Shown here piece after piece: positions 7,115-15,650 of a stretch of 64,000 bases of DNA (position 1 is its first letter; each line of letters opens with the position of its first letter). Below the pieces are notes generated by a model that was given only the letters and a program-made list of their open reading frames with translations, ran no database searches and was not told the DNA's origin. The stretch spans positions 19,583 to 83,582 of the forward strand of contig JAFXRC010000003.1 in the NCBI GenBank assembly GCA_017526585.1. The letters are read 5' to 3'. Made by a program: the position numbers and the translations under genes. This DNA comes from Fibrobacter sp. Lineage in GTDB: Bacteria > Fibrobacterota > Fibrobacteria > Fibrobacterales > Fibrobacteraceae.

Positions 7115-7187
7115 GCCTGGGTAATTTAACGGGATAAAATACGTCCCTCCTAAGGATGATATCCGCGTTCGAGTCGCGGCCCGGGTA
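7115..7187 (+). tRNA. tRNA-Arg, anticodon CCU
   Basis: Cloverleaf of 73 nt. The acceptor GCCTGGG (7115-7121) pairs with CCCGGGT (7180-7186), followed by discriminator A. Anticodon stem CGTCC/GGATG encloses the loop CTCCTAA with anticodon CCT (reads AGG). T-arm CCGCG/CGCGG encloses TTCGAGT. CCA is not encoded. A strong terminator follows directly. It marks the left border of an accessory region, a common integration position. Confidence 0.93.
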
Positions 7188-7191
7188 TAGT

Positions 7192-7225
7192 AAAGGTCTC
7201 CTGCTTTGCAGGGGACCTTTCTTTT
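7192..7225 (+). terminator. Intrinsic terminator of tRNA-Arg
   Basis: AAAGGTCTCCTGC pairs with GCAGGGGACCTTT across a TTT loop, followed by CTTTT. It ends four bases after the tRNA 3' end. Confidence 0.88.
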
Positions 7226-7406
7226 GGGAGTTCAGAGACTAGCCAAAATACGCAAAAATCATTCCATATTGGAATATCGTTTTACCTTTAATTTAGGGAT
7301 TTCTTCGTTTATTTCGAACAAAATTTCAACTTTTTGTAAAAAAATTACACCTTTTTGAAATTTTGGAGTTATCTTTAAAGCGAAATAGAGTTTTTGCTCT
7401 TGTTCT

Positions 7407-7600
7407 CTGTGTGAAATCTCGACCATTTCCTTAGACGAGAACGAGGCGAACGCTCACGCAGACATGCCGTTTTACGGCGTGTTTCAGTTTGCTATACCGA
7501 CACATTGTCGGTCTTTGGTCGTACGACCAAGGGCAACAGCCCTTTGGGGGCGTGGGTCGTTTGCGTTTATCGTCTAAAGGCTGTCGAGAGCCCCACACAG
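7407..7600 (+). ncRNA. Candidate structured leader RNA (riboswitch/attenuator-like), class unknown
   Basis: A ~194-nt region folding into a long interrupted stem capped by four hairpins. Rod pairings: CTGTGTG 7407-7413 with 7594-7600; TCTCGAC 7417-7423 with 7583-7589; CCTTAGACGA 7429-7438 with 7570-7580; ACG 7441-7443 with 7564-7566; CGAACG 7447-7452 with 7558-7563; CACGC 7455-7459 with 7550-7554. Crown hairpins: 7463-7481, 7496-7512, 7515-7530 (GTAC loop) and 7531-7542 (AACA loop). The 3' side of the rod also forms the left arm of the terminator at 7549-7627, so the two folds exclude each other. It lies in the 5' leader of the FISUMP lipoprotein. No match to tmRNA, RNase P, SRP or 6S hallmarks was recognised by eye. 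It could also be an independent small RNA ending at that terminator. Confidence 0.7.
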
Positions 7601-7627
7601 ATAAATGCAACGACTTACGCCTTTTTT
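7549..7627 (+). terminator. Long intrinsic terminator overlapping the leader RNA rod
   Basis: GGCGT (7549-7553) and GTCGTTTGCGTTTATC (7556-7571) pair with GATAAATGCAACGAC (7600-7614) and ACGCC (7617-7621), with one bulged T and one G-U pair. Six T residues follow at 7622-7627. The 28-nt loop holds a small GGCT/AGCC hairpin. Formation needs release of 7550-7571 from the upstream rod. Confidence 0.82.
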
Positions 7628-7701
7628 GTATTCACACAAAAATTCGGCTTAAATCTTTATCGGCAGGGGCGAACTCCGGATTTTTAAACACGGAGGCTGT
7701 C

Positions 7702-10347
7702 ATGGCTACAAATCATGCATCCAGGGTTATCGCGAGTGTCGCGATTGGGTTTATCTTCTTCCTCGCCGCTTGCGGTGACGAAGAAGCATCTGGGTATGTC
7801 ACAAATATCAACCAGACGGGTGTGGATGTGGTGGCATCTGTGGATGAACTCCCCAAGTGTCAAAAGGATAACGAGGGTTATCTGGTCTTTGTGAAGGGAG
7901 AAAACACTGCGCGAATTTGCGTAGACGGCAAGTGGTTTTCTATAAAGGACTCTTCGGACAACGGCGACATTAGCTGCTCCACCAAGGAACTAAAGGATGG
8001 TTCAGGGCTTAAAATTGTATGCAATGGCGACAGTATTGGCGTGGTGCTGAACGGCGCGGCAGGCAAGGATGGTACAGATGGTAAAAATGGAACCGATGGC
8101 AAGAACGGTGATGATGGAGCAAGTTGTGCCGTTACGGAACAGACTGATTCTTATGTCAACATCAAATGCGGTGACAAGAACTTGACTCTGAATCTGGGCG
8201 AGGGTGACGGTGTGGTGAGCGTTGATACGAGTGGACTTGATTCCGAAAAGATTGCTATTTCGCTCGACACCTTGTCCGGTGTTTCGCAGAAGGGGCCATT
8301 CCTGAAGGGCTCCATGGTTTACTTGTATGAACTTTCTGATGGTCGCACCCTTAAGCAGACGAATGGAAACTTTATGAGTGAAATTACGAGCGATGACGGT
8401 CGTTTTGGGTTTGCTGCTCGTAATTTGATGAGTCAGTACGCCCTAATCATGGTGGACGGCAAGTACCGTAACGAAGTGACTGGTGATCCGACGACTACGA
8501 CGATTCGCCTGCAAGCGTATACGGATGTGCTCAGTCGCAAGAAGGCGAATGTGAACTTGTTGACACACCTAGAGAAGAATCGTGTGTATTACCTAGTAAC
8601 GCAAGAAAAGAAACGCTTCAAGGTGGCGAAACACCAGGCTCAGATGGAGATTCTTGACGCATTCCATATCGATACGACGGGAATCAACAAGTCGTCGGAG
8701 GATTTGAATGTATTCGGCAGTTCCGATGCAGATGCGGCTCTTCTTGCTATCTCTATATTATTACAGCGGGATTCCAGTGAGACGGAACTTTCCGTGCTGC
8801 TGACCGACATGGCAAGCGACATGGAAAAGGACGGCAAATGGGATAACTCGGTGACAAAGGCAAGTGTTGCAGAATGGGCGGCAACAATGGATTCTTCCGT
8901 TTCTACATCAACAAGTAAACTAGCGGATTTCCGTAGCCATGTGAAAGACTGGAAACTCGGTGGCGATAATGTTCCCAACTTTGAGAAGTTTATCCGAAAG
9001 TTTTGGAGTAAGGAACTCGGCCTTGGCGTGTGTGGCGACAAGGATAATCCTGTCGGAACAATGAAGAATGTGTCAAACCCAAAGGCTTCCAGATACTACG
9101 CGTCGGGCTACACCGATGCGGGCAACAAGGTTCGCTTCATCTGTGATGACGCAAGCCTTTCCAGGTGGCGCGCTGCGACAGACATTGAGAAAGATACTAT
9201 GGGATGGGCTAGAGAATTCAAGAACGCCAAGGATGGTGATGTCCATAACGGCAAGGTGAACTCTAATGTGACTTATGTCTATGAAAACAAGAACTGGCGC
9301 TTGGGAACGGAAGTAGATAGTCTGTTGTTCAATGCCGGTGGCAAGGGGTGCATTAAAAATGGCGATACCTCAACCGTCAAATACAACGATGAGTATTATG
9401 TTTGTACAGCGCAGTCGAACGGCAGTATACCGCACAAGTGGGTAGTAGCTCCGCCTTTCTATAACGATACTTACGAGTCGCGAGACAGTTGTTCGAAGAA
9501 TGGCAAGTACAGTGATGGTACAATCCTTGTGGGCCGTGTGAATACGGGGAATAAGTATGTATGTGACAATGGAGAATTTAGGGTAGCAAAAAAACTTGAA
9601 ATCGATGGAGGCAAGGGGTGTACGAGTTATAATCCTAGAGAATTATATGTTCTAAAGCATCAATATTCTTACTACAAGTGTACAGAATCTGGCTGGGAGT
9701 TTACTCTAGAAAAACTGAACATAGATTCGATTTCCTATGGCGGTCAAACCTACAGGACAATTGGCATCAAGACTCAGAACTGGATGGCGGAAAACTTGAA
9801 TTATGAAGTCGCAAACAGCTATTGCTATGATGGTTTTGCCGACAGCTGTGCGAAGTATGGCCGCCTTTATACCTGGGCTGCGGCGGTAGGCAAGTCCGAA
9901 GAAGAATGCGGTTATGGTAAAGTTTGCGGCCTCTCCGGTGTGGTGCGTGGAATTTGTCCCGAAGGTTGGCATCTGCCTAGCAGCAGCGAATGGGAAACCC
10001 TGTATTCTGCCATAGGCGGCAGCCCATATGCGATGCAGGCGAAGAATGTAACCGAATGGCCTTATGCGACAGATGCCTATGGTTTTTCCGCCCTCCCAGC
10101 CGGAACCCGTGCTGGACAAGAATGCATATGGGATAATACCTGTAATTTCGAAGACATTTCTAATTTTTACTTCTATGGCATTGGCTCTTTATCTGTCTTC
10201 TTGGCTACAACAACTGATGACTATGATGTTCCCTTCTCGTGTAAATTGTATTCTACAAGAGCGAAACTCTCCTACTGGGAAGACGATGGCTGGGCTGTTC
10301 CCAAATCTTCCGGATTTTCTGTTCGTTGTCTCCAAGATGAACCATAA
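7702..10347 (+). CDS. FISUMP-domain lipoprotein with collagen-like segment
   Basis: Start at ATG 7702, with GGAGG 5-6 bases upstream and a lipoprotein signal directly after it (FFLAAC, Cys24). The upstream open frame to 7489 belongs to the leader RNA and is rejected. The 881-residue product has a collagen-like GKDGTDGKNGTDGKNGDDG run (about 121-139) and a middle region with a carboxypeptidase-regulatory-like opening (SGVSQKGPFLKGSMVYLYEL). Two or three short Cys modules follow (YYVCTAQSN, KYVCDNGEF, YYKCTESGW). The FISUMP domain runs from about 672 to the end (INIDSISYGGQTYRTI, NWMAENLNY, CPEGWHLPSSSEW, DAYGFSALPAG, SVRCLQDEP). This domain is multiplied in Fibrobacter genomes and thought to act at the cell surface; its biochemical role is unknown. 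It is preceded by an unusual structured leader with terminator. Confidence 0.9.
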   Translation: MATNHASRVIASVAIGFIFFLAACGDEEASGYVTNINQTGVDVVASVDELPKCQKDNEGYLVFVKGENTARICVDGKWFSIKDSSDNGDISCSTKELKDGSGLKIVCNGDSIGVVLNGAAGKDGTDGKNGTDGKNGDDGASCAVTEQTDSYVNIKCGDKNLTLNLGEGDGVVSVDTSGLDSEKIAISLDTLSGVSQKGPFLKGSMVYLYELSDGRTLKQTNGNFMSEITSDDGRFGFAARNLMSQYALIMVDGKYRNEVTGDPTTTTIRLQAYTDVLSRKKANVNLLTHLEKNRVYYLVTQEKKRFKVAKHQAQMEILDAFHIDTTGINKSSEDLNVFGSSDADAALLAISILLQRDSSETELSVLLTDMASDMEKDGKWDNSVTKASVAEWAATMDSSVSTSTSKLADFRSHVKDWKLGGDNVPNFEKFIRKFWSKELGLGVCGDKDNPVGTMKNVSNPKASRYYASGYTDAGNKVRFICDDASLSRWRAATDIEKDTMGWAREFKNAKDGDVHNGKVNSNVTYVYENKNWRLGTEVDSLLFNAGGKGCIKNGDTSTVKYNDEYYVCTAQSNGSIPHKWVVAPPFYNDTYESRDSCSKNGKYSDGTILVGRVNTGNKYVCDNGEFRVAKKLEIDGGKGCTSYNPRELYVLKHQYSYYKCTESGWEFTLEKLNIDSISYGGQTYRTIGIKTQNWMAENLNYEVANSYCYDGFADSCAKYGRLYTWAAAVGKSEEECGYGKVCGLSGVVRGICPEGWHLPSSSEWETLYSAIGGSPYAMQAKNVTEWPYATDAYGFSALPAGTRAGQECIWDNTCNFEDISNFYFYGIGSLSVFLATTTDDYDVPFSCKLYSTRAKLSYWEDDGWAVPKSSGFSVRCLQDEP

Positions 10348-10409
10348 GGCACTTGCGCATCACGAAAACTTATAACACACCCAACAACCCAAAAACAAAG
10401 GAGCTAAAA

Positions 10410-11330
10410 ATGTTTTTTTATTTTTTTCCTTTTTATCAGAATAAAGAAACAATTCCAAGCACCTTCTATAAGTTTGTCAAAGACGATGATGGACATAAGG
10501 CGTTAAAGAGCATTTGTGAAGGGTTCGTAAAATTTTCCCGAATTACGGATATGAATGATTCCTCTGAGGAATGTGCCTTTGCAAATTATGAAGAGTATTG
10601 TAAGACAGTAAGGAAAATTTTTAATGAAGGTTGTTCTCAAGACGATTTTCAAATGCTGAGCAAACATTATGACTTGATTGACAAGATTTTCCCTGAATTA
10701 AAAATGAAGGATAGAAAGAATTTCTTTATGCAATGGGCTAGGGTTTTGTGTGGAAAAGATCTGCCAAGCATAATTGGTGGTAGAATTGACACTCAATTGA
10801 TTCAAAATGCTGACTTTTTTGACAATTTGGAAAATCTTTTTAAACTTGTCCATAAAAACATCTTGAATAAGGTTGGTGCCTTTTGCGTCACATCCCTATT
10901 AGATAATTATCCGATGTGGACTCATTATGCTGATTATGCACAAGGCTTTGCTGTTGAATTTAAAAATCTACATCAACGCTTCAATGGCGATGGTACAGGT
11001 ATTTTGCATCAGTTGGATGCGGTCCATTATTTTGATGAAAGAAAGTCGACCCCTACAAAACCATCCGATTTATCGGAAATTTTCCGTACGAAATTGACAG
11101 ACTGGAAACATGAAAAAGAATACAGAATAGTCGAATGTCTTTCAGAGTGTGAAAAAGGCGACAAATCACAGTATTTTTATCCAGTTGGTCGCGAATATAT
11201 CAGTCGCATCATTGTTGGTTGGAAATGTTCAGATGTCCGTTTTAAGGAAATCAAAAGAATCACTGACGAAGCCGGCATTGAAGTTATTCGATTGAAAATC
11301 GATGAACACGGAAAAATTGTCCCAGCATAA
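10410..11330 (+). CDS. DUF2971 domain protein
   Basis: A 306-residue protein. ATG 10410 is chosen because AAAGGAGC lies 6-7 bases upstream; a frame open to 10353 has no ribosome site. Family landmarks: FSRITDMNDSSEECAF near the N-terminus, GAFCVTSLLDNYPMWTHYAD in the middle with AQGFAVEF after it, and KLTDWKHEKEYRIVE near the end. No signal peptide. The function of DUF2971 is not established; members are often found in variable, defence-rich loci. Codon use here is clearly more AT-rich than in metG or the dehydratase gene nearby, consistent with horizontal acquisition. It lies 62 bp after the FISUMP lipoprotein inside the tRNA-linked accessory segment. Confidence 0.85.
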   Translation: MFFYFFPFYQNKETIPSTFYKFVKDDDGHKALKSICEGFVKFSRITDMNDSSEECAFANYEEYCKTVRKIFNEGCSQDDFQMLSKHYDLIDKIFPELKMKDRKNFFMQWARVLCGKDLPSIIGGRIDTQLIQNADFFDNLENLFKLVHKNILNKVGAFCVTSLLDNYPMWTHYADYAQGFAVEFKNLHQRFNGDGTGILHQLDAVHYFDERKSTPTKPSDLSEIFRTKLTDWKHEKEYRIVECLSECEKGDKSQYFYPVGREYISRIIVGWKCSDVRFKEIKRITDEAGIEVIRLKIDEHGKIVPA

Positions 11331-12293: not shown

Positions 12294-13298
12294 TTATTTA
12301 ATTGCCCGCATTGCAGCAATCACGTCTTCCGGGATGTTCTGAGAACGGAGATAATCCTCCCTTCTTGAGTCACGAGCTGCAATCTCTGCTTCGCTCTTTT
12401 CGCGTTCTTGCTTAGCACCTTTTTCGATACCAACATTCACGAAGTGCTCGGCGAATGTCTCGTATCCCTTGTTCGCGACAATTTCAGGTCTGTCCATCTT
12501 GAGGTTCCCCCGCTTGTAAGGCCACTTCCACAGGAAATATGAAAGCGCCTGCTTGATGAAATCCCTTCCCTTGTCCGTATTCTGCCACTTGAGCAGACGC
12601 ATCGCAGCCTCGCGGAAGGTAGCCGAGAACTGCTCCGCATTCCAAATATACTTCATCGCAGTAAGTGCGACAAGAGTAAACGGCGAAAAATCCTTCAGTT
12701 CCTTGTCATCAATTGCATGCCCCACATCCAAGAATTCCACCTTGAAGGGGTATCCGATGTCGTGATAGAATTCGGGATATTCGGCATAGTGCGTCTCCGA
12801 AAGCGGATTCCAATCGTTTTCGCCGTTATAAACGATGAAGGCAACCACCGGCACATCTTTCTTGCGTTCCAGATACAAATGATGGTAGTATTCCGATATT
12901 TGCTTCATCACTTCGCTGTCCTCGCTGGACTTGTGTTCGGCAATAATACCCACATAGAGCGCCGCGGTACCACCGTCCTTGATTTGCGCTTCAAATACAA
13001 GGTCGGAGTAGCCCACATGCTTGTCACTGGAGAAGTTCTCGCTTGCGCCATGGAGCGTCGACAGATCGATGGTGTCGAGGAAAGCCTTGAGCGTCGGGTT
13101 ATGGCGCGAGAATAGAGTCAATAGTTCCGCCATGCGCTCCGGGTCCGCAAACGCAAAGCGCAAAAAACGGTCATGAGTGAAGTTGCTTTCGCCCTCGACA
13201 GAATCCAAAATGACCTGGAATTCGTGAGCAATATCGCGAATGACGGAATCCGGAGACTCCTGCGGGGTGTTGTTTTCAATACTTTCTTTTTCTGACAT
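12294..13298 (-). CDS. Rpn family recombination-promoting nuclease / putative transposase (PD-(D/E)XK)
   Basis: A 334-residue intact member of the Rpn/PDDEXK_2 family. N-terminal landmarks: HDRFLRFAFADPERMAELL, then DLSTLHGAS, and the nuclease core GYSDLVFEAQI (Asp) followed by YVGIIAEHKSSED (E-x-K). Further on are VVAFIVYNGENDWNPL and the C-terminal GIEKGAKQEREKSEAE coiled tail. E. coli RpnA relatives cut DNA and promote RecA-independent recombination; chromosomal copies are usually accessory and variable. Here it neighbours a decayed relative and palindromic repeats. It is transcribed away from metG and ends near a shared terminator. Single start chosen at ATG 13298; no strong Shine-Dalgarno. 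Confidence 0.87.
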   Translation of the reverse strand: MSEKESIENNTPQESPDSVIRDIAHEFQVILDSVEGESNFTHDRFLRFAFADPERMAELLTLFSRHNPTLKAFLDTIDLSTLHGASENFSSDKHVGYSDLVFEAQIKDGGTAALYVGIIAEHKSSEDSEVMKQISEYYHHLYLERKKDVPVVAFIVYNGENDWNPLSETHYAEYPEFYHDIGYPFKVEFLDVGHAIDDKELKDFSPFTLVALTAMKYIWNAEQFSATFREAAMRLLKWQNTDKGRDFIKQALSYFLWKWPYKRGNLKMDRPEIVANKGYETFAEHFVNVGIEKGAKQEREKSEAEIAARDSRREDYLRSQNIPEDVIAAMRAIK

Positions 13299-13474: not shown

Positions 13475-13573
13475 CTTTTACTAAATTGGCGCTCCTTCAG
13501 AGCGCATTTAGTACGGCTCGGCCATGTCAAAGTAACAAGTTACTTTGCCGCGGCGCTCGCCTTTTACTAAATT
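13475..13573 (-). repeat. Two-hairpin dispersed element, copy A2, with flanking 13-bp direct repeats
   Basis: Minus-strand order: AAGGCGAGCGCCGCG, hairpin 1 CAAAGTAAC/GTTACTTTG (13528-13547), CATGGCCGAGCCG, hairpin 2 GCGCTC/GAGCGC (13489-13505). The element (13488-13560) is bounded by two perfect copies of CTTTTACTAAATT (13475-13487 and 13561-13573), resembling a target-site duplication. An inverted partial copy ATTTAGTA (13506-13513) lengthens hairpin 2. It ends 8 bp before metG. Confidence 0.75.
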
Positions 13574-13580
13574 TGTGGCC

Positions 13581-15650
13581 ATGAAAAATTTTTACGTTAC
13601 AACGCCGATTTATTACGTTAACGACGCCCCGCATATCGGGCACTCCTACACCACCGTCCTCGCGGACATCCTCACCCGTTTCCACAAGATCCTGGGCTAC
13701 CAGACGTTCTTCTTGACCGGTACCGACGAACACGGCCAGAAGGTGCAGCGCGCCGCCGAAAAGCGCGGCGTGACCCCGCAGGAACACGTGGATGAATACT
13801 ACCACCGTTTCGAAGACCTGTGGAAGAAGATGGGTATCGGTAACGACTTCTTTATCCGCACCACCATGCCCGAGCACAAGGCCTTTGTGCAGGAATGTCT
13901 GCAGAAACTCTGGGACAAGGGTGAAATTTACTCGAAGGAATATGAAGGCTGGTACTCCGTGGGCGAAGAACGCTTCTTCAGCGAAGACGAGCTCGACGAG
14001 AACAAGTGCGACCCCATCAGCCACCGCCCGGTGGAATGGCTCAAGGAAAAGAACTACTTCTTCAAGATGGGTTCTTACCAGCAGAAGCTGATTGACTTCC
14101 TCGAAAGCCACAAGGACTGGATTGTGCCGGACTACCGCTGGAACGAAATCCGCGGATTCCTGCGCCAGCCGCTGAACGACCTGTGCATCAGTCGCCCGAA
14201 GGCACGCCTCAGCTGGGGCATTCCGCTGCCGTTCGACACCGACTACGTGACCTACGTGTGGTTCGACGCCCTGCTCAACTACGTAAGCGCCTCCACCGCC
14301 TTCCACAAGACTTATGCCGACGGCACGCCGATCTGGCCTGCCACCTACCACCTCATCGGCAAGGACATCTTGACGACTCACAGCGTGTACTGGCCGACCA
14401 TGCTCATGGCCCTCGACATTCCGCTCCCGCAGCACATCCTCGCCCACGGCTGGTGGCTCGTGAACGGCGGCGAAAAGATGAGCAAGTCCGCTGGCAACGT
14501 CGTGAACCCGATGGACTACATGGAAAAGTACGGCATCGACGCGTTCCGCTACTTCCTCGCCCGCGAAATGGTGGTGGGCCAGGACGCAAACTTCACCCAC
14601 GACGCCTTCGTGCGCCGCATCAACAGCGACCTCGCCAACGACCTGGGCAACGTGCTGAATCGCGTGCACCGTCTGGTCATCACGAACTTTGAAGGCAAGC
14701 TCCCTGCCGCCACCTCCATCGGTGACGCCGAAAAGGAAGTCATCGACCTTGCGAACAAGGTGATTGCCGAAATCAAGGAAGGCCTGCCGCAGGCCCGCCT
14801 CTCCCAGTCCATCGAGACCATCATGCAGCTCGTGCGTAGCATCAACCGCTACCTTGAAGTCAAGGCCCCGTGGAAGCTCGCGAAGGACCCCGCCCTCAAG
14901 GACGAACTCGCGACCGTGCTCTATGTTTCTGCAGAAGCCGTACGTCTCTCGCTCTGCCTGCTATGGCCGGTAATTCCGGGCAAGGCGGAAGAAGGCCTCG
15001 CCATGATCGGTTCCAAGTTCCAGAGTGCCGACGACCTCGCCTGGGGAATCCTCAAGGGTGGAGAAGCATTCGGCGAAGGCAAACCGCTCTTCCCGCGTAT
15101 CGAAGAAGAAGTCAAGAAGCAGGAACCGCAGCAGAAGCCCAAGCAGAACAAGCCGCTGATGGCTGCCGACGTGCCTGCCGCCATGGATATGCGCGTGGCC
15201 CAGATTAAGGAAGTGGCCGACCATCCGGATGCCACGAGCCTCTACGTGCTCAAGGTGGACGCCGGCGAAGGCGAACTCCGCACCATCTGCAGCGGCCTCA
15301 AGAGCAGCTACAAGGCCGAAGAACTCCAGGATCGCAAGATCCTCCTGTTCGCAAACTTGAAGCCGAGCGCTCTCCGCGGCATCATGAGTCAGGGTATGCT
15401 CTTTGCGGGCGACCTCGATGCCGAAGCTCACACCTGCCGCCTCGTCTCTGTTCCTGAAGACGCCAAGCCCGGTGACCGAGCCCTCTTCAAGGGTGTGGCA
15501 CCCAGCGAACCGCGCGAACTCAAGGTGAAGGATTTCGAGAAGATCGCGCTCTCCGTGAAGGGTGGCGCCGTTTTCTGCGATGCCCTCGCTCTCGAAGTGA
15601 ACGGCAAGCCGGTGACCTGCGACGTCGCCGACGGCAACGGAGTACATTAA
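13581..15650 (+). CDS. metG: Methionyl-tRNA synthetase with C-terminal tRNA-binding domain
   Basis: A 689-residue class I aminoacyl-tRNA synthetase charging tRNA-Met. HIGH is at 18-21 (APHIGHSYT) and KMSKS at about 299-303 (GGEKMSKSAGN). The anticodon-binding helical domain follows, and from about 532 a Trbp111/EMAPII-type OB-fold (MDMRVAQIKEVADHPDA, LRTICSGLKSSY, LRGIMSQGML) that mediates dimerisation and tRNA binding. The start at ATG 13581 gives the canonical MKNFYVTTPIYYVNDAPHIG. An open frame 12 codons longer runs into the palindromic repeat and is rejected. No Shine-Dalgarno is visible because the repeat element lies directly upstream, so its promoter must lie within or before that repeat cluster. 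Convergent with the methyltransferase gene, 8 bp away. Confidence 0.96.
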   Translation: MKNFYVTTPIYYVNDAPHIGHSYTTVLADILTRFHKILGYQTFFLTGTDEHGQKVQRAAEKRGVTPQEHVDEYYHRFEDLWKKMGIGNDFFIRTTMPEHKAFVQECLQKLWDKGEIYSKEYEGWYSVGEERFFSEDELDENKCDPISHRPVEWLKEKNYFFKMGSYQQKLIDFLESHKDWIVPDYRWNEIRGFLRQPLNDLCISRPKARLSWGIPLPFDTDYVTYVWFDALLNYVSASTAFHKTYADGTPIWPATYHLIGKDILTTHSVYWPTMLMALDIPLPQHILAHGWWLVNGGEKMSKSAGNVVNPMDYMEKYGIDAFRYFLAREMVVGQDANFTHDAFVRRINSDLANDLGNVLNRVHRLVITNFEGKLPAATSIGDAEKEVIDLANKVIAEIKEGLPQARLSQSIETIMQLVRSINRYLEVKAPWKLAKDPALKDELATVLYVSAEAVRLSLCLLWPVIPGKAEEGLAMIGSKFQSADDLAWGILKGGEAFGEGKPLFPRIEEEVKKQEPQQKPKQNKPLMAADVPAAMDMRVAQIKEVADHPDATSLYVLKVDAGEGELRTICSGLKSSYKAEELQDRKILLFANLKPSALRGIMSQGMLFAGDLDAEAHTCRLVSVPEDAKPGDRALFKGVAPSEPRELKVKDFEKIALSVKGGAVFCDALALEVNGKPVTCDVADGNGVH

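Follow-up and report, generated by a model that had tools for sequence, protein, structure and literature searches.

What is the function of the large, strongly folded RNA that is encoded upstream of an accessory lipoprotein gene in Fibrobacter sp., and how far does it extend beyond that gene? The structure occupies positions 7381-7627 (+ strand) of the window, the 64,000-nucleotide stretch of DNA analysed here. A first-pass annotation, made from the letters alone, had proposed a leader with two mutually exclusive folds, a multi-hairpin rod or a terminator. Following it up computationally, we consider it probable that the locus is one copy of a multicopy Fibrobacteraceae leader that works as a bistable transcription attenuator, likely relaying its state to translation, before exchangeable genes such as those for DNA methyltransferases and surface lipoproteins.

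The segment 7390-7640 had a folding energy of -103.9 kcal/mol (z -6.9), as good as which none of 200 shuffles was, and both proposed folds were present where they had been placed. The minus strand of the same segment also folded well (z -5.9), which counts against the attenuator reading. For RNA beginning at 7381, the rod was the free minimum at six tried 3' ends (7581 to 7615) and also at 3' end 7621 (-105.1), and the terminator was the free minimum at 3' end 7627 (-106.8 vs -103.2 for the same RNA with the antiterminator imposed). The intrinsic terminator, with a 22-bp stem and a U run, lies 5' of the start codon. The six-pairing rod exists, but its exclusion of the terminator is limited to the inner rod (7446-7459/7550-7564). 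The outer helices K1 (7408-7412/7595-7599), K2 (7418-7423/7583-7588) and K3 (7431-7436/7572-7577) share no base with the terminator stem and could persist beside it as loop-loop contacts. Two pairings lay beyond the span described earlier, namely that of 7388-7404 (5' strand) with 7662-7676 and a hairpin covering the Shine-Dalgarno site (7692-7696). The annotation had recognised no known class, and indeed the Rfam 15 covariance models, T-box included, gave no match in 7200-7800 at E<=5, and the sole match in the whole window at gathering scores was a tRNA (7115-7187); a known Rfam class was thus rejected.

Copies of the leader, numbering in the hundreds, are found across Fibrobacter-family bacteria ahead of exchangeable genes. 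The genome of the window itself had seven matches at six places, and a plain DNA search detected a match in 37 of 60 genomes (this one included), all of the same genus. A 14-base core pattern was present in 78 of the 80 genomes of the genus, against 12 matches in 9 of the 80 for the reversed control pattern. Of 167 genomes in the phylum, 93 were matched by a covariance model of the leader's 3' half (R1); they comprise 79 of the genus's 80, 11 from four further genera of the family and 3, weakly matched, from two other families. Counts per genome went up to 21 within the genus and to 27 in a related genome; some of these matches are the antisense of the same near-palindromic stem. All core-matching loci in named genomes (L037-L147) came from Fibrobacter, Fibrobacteraceae or Fibrobacterales, except for three records, Treponema (L061) and Bacteroidales (L077, L086), on contigs of 3.7-5.2 kb, which we read as mis-binned; the L061 product was similar by eye to that of L133. 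Searches of phage and plasmid collections (E<=1e-5) gave no leader match and the exact core pattern was missing from viral contigs, so a phage or plasmid origin was rejected. The leader was not described in the open-licence papers searched for Fibrobacter leader RNAs or riboswitches, FISUMP, and restriction-modification or anti-phage attenuation; in PMC2864571, the sole mention of riboswitches is in the reference list.

For the comparison of copies, 130 anchors were found, of which 116 had the 5' motif, 112 were complete and 97 remained under 92% identity. Alignment A2 was made from 72 of these 97, selected by length, and reduced to 41 copies under 84% identity. A structure-free covariation scan over the column pairs of the aligned 5' and 3' blocks (255 columns x 97 copies) placed its eleven strongest pairs all in K1, K2 and K3, which connect the loops of two hairpins, H1 and the terminator (7549-7571/7600-7621). 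At 7410/7597, for example, the pair was AU in 35 copies, UA in 24, GC in 17, CG in 15, UG in 3, GU in 2 and other in 1, being canonical in 96 of 97. Non-helix pairs appeared lower in the ranking because the copies are related. When all helices were scored as one pseudoknotted structure in the 41 diverse copies, 93.9% of cells were paired (36-46% in slid controls) and the covariation score was 0.370 (0.04-0.08 slid; 0 of 500 shuffles), and the 'further pair types' measure was not distinct from shuffles (68 of 500). Within this fold, almost all bases of 7398-7446 and 7549-7621 can each be paired once. Judging from the pair list, H1, K1, T and K3 would form one four-way junction, and K1, h5, K3 and h3 a second one.

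From the 5' end, the leader is preceded by a -10-like element, TATCTT (7370-7375, + strand). TATNTT occurs in the 43 bases upstream of the leader in 88 of the 97 copies, compared with 35 of 97 in mononucleotide shuffles, and the RNA is predicted to start near 7381. The promoter-like element thus stands upstream of the whole structure, in line with the annotation's reading of a leader. Strand a (7388-7406, + strand, as are all the parts that follow) pairs either with a' (7438-7446), as hairpin H1, or with strand x (7662-7676). H1 (7398-7406/7438-7446) had 9 pairs with 98.9% of cells paired in the 41 copies, and 6 of the 9 varied on one side only, mostly from U-A to U-G and from G-C to G-U, the variation lying in a' and a being near-invariant. 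Within the H1 loop lie the 5' strands of the hypervariable helices K1 (7408-7412), K2 (7418-7423) and K3 (7431-7436). In the same 41 copies, 99.5%, 95.5% and 95.4% of cells were paired in K1, K2 and K3, and both sides had changed in 5 of 5, 5 of 6 and 6 of 6 pairs, respectively. The K2 strand sits in the loop of a mini-hairpin, h5 (7413-7429; GAAAU 7413-7417 with AUUUC 7425-7429), and its partner sits likewise in the loop of a second one, h3 (7579-7582/7589-7592). In the best register, a way of counting that leans towards pairing, h5 could form 5 pairs in 89 of the 97 copies, 4 in 7 and 3 in 1, and h3 could form all 4 of its pairs in 67 copies and 3 in the other 30. On the MAFFT alignment, h5 was 74.1% paired, with some rows one base out of register, and h3 74.8%.

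Strand c (7446-7459), the antiterminator strand, pairs with 7550-7564 and thereby excludes the terminator. This helix, c/T5, had 14 pairs with 99.5% of cells paired and covariation in only 3 cells (41 copies). Compensatory change, which the annotation had proposed to look for in both folds, was seen in K1-K3 and almost not at all in c/T5. The latter counts against the attenuator reading; the antiterminator rests on near-perfect conservation. The apical region that follows (7460-7548) carries the four hairpins described by the annotation, but elsewhere it is variable or almost missing: the distance from the 5' strand to the anchor ranged from 70 to 244 among the 97 copies, and the short ones keep just a few apical bases, from which it follows that the hairpins are dispensable. 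An aptamer within them was rejected on the same observation, and a leader peptide as the driver was rejected on judgement, there being little room for one in short copies. In L032, L033, L329 and L340, the long apical regions seem to contain a REP-like element, GTCATTGCG...GAAGCAATC and variants, which appears as if inserted into a tolerant rod tip.

The 3' half begins with T5 (7549-7571), the 5' strand of the terminator and also the partner of the antiterminator. It continues with the terminator loop (7572-7599), which shows the covariation of K3' (7572-7577), K2' (7583-7588) and K1' (7595-7599) and includes h3, and ends with T3 (7600-7621) and the U run (7622-7627). The terminator stem, counted over the 41 copies, had 23 pairs with 97.4% of cells paired; 17 pairs varied one-sidedly and 2 on both sides. 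Position 7554 was G in 97 of 97 copies and its partner 7616 was C in 36 and U in 61. More generally, T3 moves between G-C and G-U or between U-A and U-G as T5 stays fixed, which indicates that the + strand is the working RNA and hints at another partner for T5. Mean column entropies were 1.34 bits for K1 and for K3, 1.10 for x, 0.51 for T3, 0.26 for a, 0.14 for T5 and 0.11 for h5. Probably, K1-K3 are free to vary because each strand has one partner, and a and T5, with two partners, are near invariant. Two strands are exceptions to this argument: h5, with one partner, has 0.11 bits, and x, expected to have two, has 1.10. Both h5 and c are near invariant and conserved beyond pairing, and h5 may be read by its sequence.

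Both the terminator and the exclusive rod were available in 97 of 97 distinct copies, with at least 14 terminator pairs in each and, in the rod fold, at least 8 pairs of T5 with upstream sequence in each. The stems invoked by the annotation are in this way kept in the homologues. The computed energy of the terminator minus that of the rod had a median of -3.0 kcal/mol (IQR -5.4 to -1.1; 97 copies), ranging from -19.6 to +7.7 kcal/mol in single copies. Since the computed energies of the folds differ so little, a modest input could decide between them; the pseudoknot, left out of these energies, would shift the balance towards termination with K1-K3 still paired, and the folds may be less evenly matched than computed.

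Each terminated leader would be an RNA of ~245 nt, which keeps in view the reading that a stand-alone small RNA of this length, with the double four-way-junction fold, is the main product and that the gene is reached by leak. The presence of at least 14 terminator pairs in all 97 copies and the nearly full pairing of 7398-7446 and 7549-7621 in one pseudoknotted fold would suit such an RNA. It would not need the near-fixed distance to the start codon found in 77 of the 97 copies, where the chosen codon lies 130-170 nt past the anchor, nor a placement only upstream and on the same strand at methyltransferase genes (see below), and we regard it as unlikely.

A link from the leader to translation would run through strand x and the Shine-Dalgarno region, which were compared in the 77 copies with that start-codon distance and, for the Shine-Dalgarno arms, in 72. 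The a/x duplex averaged -17.6 kcal/mol, against -11.1 with x shuffled, the own x being lower in 77 of 77 copies. A copy's own x barely outdid that of other copies (-17.6 vs -17.2; own better in 45 of 77), so the support for a/x is conserved complementarity and not covariation. Strand x can alternatively pair in part with the Shine-Dalgarno region: here and in several copies, a hairpin joins CUCCG (7674-7678) to CGGAG (7691-7695). This hairpin was weak across the family (mean z -1.1, 77 copies), and its arms gave -10.5 for the own combination and -9.3 when crossed, the own being better in 43 of the 72.

The hypervariable helices carry a match that is specific to each copy. Exchanging the 5' half for that of one random other copy cost the rod a mean of 12.8 kcal/mol, and the own half was better in 95 of 97 cases. 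Within genomes, pairs of leaders of different lineage with the same K1 numbered 1 against 5.5 expected from shuffled genome labels (P=0.017; 120 copies, 14 genomes). The 120 copies were those parsed from 144 anchors; some of the other 24 look like chance matches inside genes and others like divergent copies. A smaller, overlapping set gave 1 such pair in 233 against 7.5 expected, and one genome (G033) carries one leader lineage twice. It is suggestive only, as relatedness between genomes raises the expectation, that leaders act like a private code seldom repeated in one genome.

A tandem subtype extends this matching to three strands. In 26 copies, a second 5' half stands behind the first terminator and the gene comes after it. 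Among 31 copies with a distinct 3' half, each of the two 5' halves paired more stably with its own 3' half than with those of other copies on average, in 31 of 31 (own -31.9 and -30.2 kcal/mol, others -18.0 and -18.1). That a 3' half has two matched partners, of which one occurs only past the terminator, speaks for a switch and would also permit action in trans. By eye, 6 of 8 tandem copies inspected, but not L224 or L230, showed a second terminator-like hairpin followed by a U run. This second hairpin has a complementary upstream strand (ACTCGCC with GGCGAG), resembling a second antiterminator, in L035, L036, L193, L202 and L225, ~170-340 nt past the anchor (to ~430 in L193); these copies were too similar for a covariation test. 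Twenty-four of the 26 tandem copies had a reading frame, and 9 of the 10 scanned with Pfam encoded restriction-modification proteins (C5 methylase in 4, EcoRI-type methylase in 2, Tsp45I endonuclease in 2 and N6/N4 methylase in 1). Somewhat speculatively, the terminated leader RNA might act in trans on the readthrough transcript of its own gene, each leader being a private RNA address: its 3' half would bind the second 5' half, downstream of the first terminator, and thereby decide the fate of the second terminator. We hold this to be doubtful. If it were true, many defence and surface genes per cell would be under separate self-feedback, and the leader of an incoming cassette would be adopted or silenced depending on whether the cell already has its code.

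We then considered the genes behind the leader. In the window, these are a gene for an 881-aa lipoprotein-like protein with a C-terminal FISUMP domain (7702-10347, + strand; Pfam PF09603, E 7e-18) and a DUF2971 gene (10353-11330, + strand; PF11185, E 3.5e-07). A YhgA-like Transposase_31 gene on the minus strand (12294-13298) adjoins this cargo. The annotation had supposed a leader class of the FISUMP family, which proved too narrow: of the 114 downstream frames kept from the 130 anchors (at least 35 aa, first 25 residues distinct), 22 encoded proteins matching FISUMP (TIGR02145), and restriction-modification and other accessory genes were common, so a FISUMP-only leader was rejected. The same 114 proteins included 6 anti-phage ProA, 4 matches to a collagen-like adhesin model and 3 CBS-domain anti-phage proteins; the DISARM DrmD, DpdE, restriction-modification and UvrD/Gabija-type models matched one protein each, some perhaps the same protein. 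Short copies numbered 69, of which 65 had a frame; in 40 N-terminally distinct proteins picked by eye and run against PADLOC, 18 had a match at E<=1e-20 and 16 of these were restriction-modification. A DNA methyltransferase was found behind 6 of 10 leaders in a single-contig genome of another genus and behind 4 of 7 in a third genus. Sense matches had been retrieved for 10 of 10 in G158 and 7 of 8 in G166, the gene being taken as the longest frame starting up to ~620 nt from the match, which is perhaps not the first gene (frames start at +496 in L336 and +577 in L334). A bacterial EndoU nuclease gene (L327:849-1496; Pfam PF14436) lies behind a leader in a related genus, in a genome assembled as a single contig.

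Seen from the methyltransferases, 25 of 60 matches in nine genomes were preceded by a same-strand leader at a distance of up to 1.5 kb, against 0.15 expected (14 of 29 C5 and 11 of 31 N6 matches), and 35 were not. At these 60 matches there was no leader upstream on the opposite strand and none downstream on the same strand. Antisense matches to these stems, 14 in all (2 of 20 and 12 of 96 rows), were excluded from the count, and split methyltransferase hits were merged (32 rows to 29).

Two further readings are affected by this range of genes, which share no evident pathway. The annotation had pictured a riboswitch or attenuator with a hairpin-capped receptor; its terminator/antiterminator leader stands, and the capped receptor for a ligand finds no support, the hairpins being variable or missing. 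A small-molecule riboswitch, with the rod or its hairpins as aptamer, would agree with the overlap of rod and terminator, which is the layout of transcriptional riboswitches, and with the near invariance of h5 and c. The lack of an evident common pathway, the variable or missing apical hairpins and the fact that most conserved positions pair make it very unlikely. Processive antitermination systems place one conserved leader ahead of many unrelated operons, and a leader of this kind, bound by a NusG-like protein, would account for the variety of operons as well as for the near-invariant h5 and c. The strongest constraint that we measured is nevertheless on pairing, and we judge this reading distinctly improbable.

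The leader is also a place of exchange. Same-code copies in different genomes in some cases shared ~1.35 kb upstream and nothing downstream (L040/L044, 95%), in others the downstream and not the upstream sequence (L125/L002, 97%), and in further pairs neither flank. For L040/L044, homology ended 116 nt past the anchor, gave way to unrelated cargo of 3.4 kb and 1.4 kb, and resumed at 92-97%. In seven pairs the break points lay 86 to 172 nt past the anchor, and several pairs had homology in both flanks. Because homology breaks at the leader, it behaves as the left edge of slots with exchanged cargo; the window's own slot would extend from tRNA-Arg (7115-7187) to methionyl-tRNA synthetase (13545-15647). 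The right-hand ends of exchanged blocks bear a second repeat, GCGTTAGGGATAG...AATATAGCCCGACCC, with a variable centre (L040:5671, L044:4044, L043:6872 and L097:3417, loci turned so that the leader is on the + strand), and these loci gave no Rfam match at gathering scores. In L071 (2066-2230 and 5175-5348) and L104 (2198-2373 and 5807-5968), an inverted repeat of ~165 bp flanks the leader plus cargo.

Such a location could mean that the element is an attC-like DNA site for site-specific recombination that inserts cargo, the RNA fold being a by-product. Homology between genomes does break at the leader, on either side, and other palindromic repeats mark the right-hand ends of exchanged blocks. 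We give this reading very little credence, since the G-U wobble drift is specific to the + strand, the element comes with a U run as well as promoter-like and ribosome sites, the break points vary between pairs, and homology of both flanks in several pairs is what ordinary homologous recombination gives.

Returning to the bistable attenuator that we prefer, its course would be as follows. During synthesis, strand c would pair with T5, and the copy-specific K1-K3 would zip both halves into the rod, which would keep the terminator open. T3, made last, could then displace c, giving the 22-bp terminator and an RNA that ends near 7627. Candidate inputs for the decision are polymerase speed, a bound protein or another RNA. 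In the rod state, a would be free to pair with x, and the ribosome site would open; once H1 is formed, x could fold over the site. The folds, their covariation, the copy numbers and the cargo with its exchange are computed results, from which we infer the transcription start, termination and readthrough in the cell, the switch and its translational step. For rumen cellulose degraders, the leader would add a family-wide layer of RNA control over their exchangeable arsenal, including type I, II, IIG and III restriction-modification genes along with further defence genes. It would also open to experiment the question of how a restriction-modification system that has just entered a host can be expressed there safely. 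With their hypervariable yet matched helices, in the tandem subtype among three strands, these leaders would offer a striking example of orthogonal RNA pairing in nature.

Finally, we compared the leader with known systems. Like attenuators and transcriptional riboswitches, it has a terminator and an antiterminator fold that exclude each other and precede a coding region, and all 97 copies offer both. Unlike those, it serves genes with no evident pathway in common, has hypervariable matched helices and an apical part that is variable or missing, and reaches 21 or 27 model matches per genome, some antisense. In T-box leaders (RF00230), antiterminator and terminator share a strand, as they do here, but the leader has no Rfam match (7200-7800, E<=5) and the genes seen behind it are not aminoacyl-tRNA related. 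Restriction-modification genes are known to be controlled by controller proteins. Antisense RNAs and reverse promoters have also been described as controlling them (PMC3874152), and the main text of that review lacks the term 'riboswitch' and has 'attenuat', 'leader' and 'terminator' once each. The leader would control the same genes, but it is a sense RNA with a terminator. Integron attC sites are structured, length-variable elements bordering exchangeable genes at the 3' end of the cassette; the leader is likewise structured, variable in length and next to exchangeable genes, but it lies 5' of the exchanged cargo and has promoter-like and ribosome sites.
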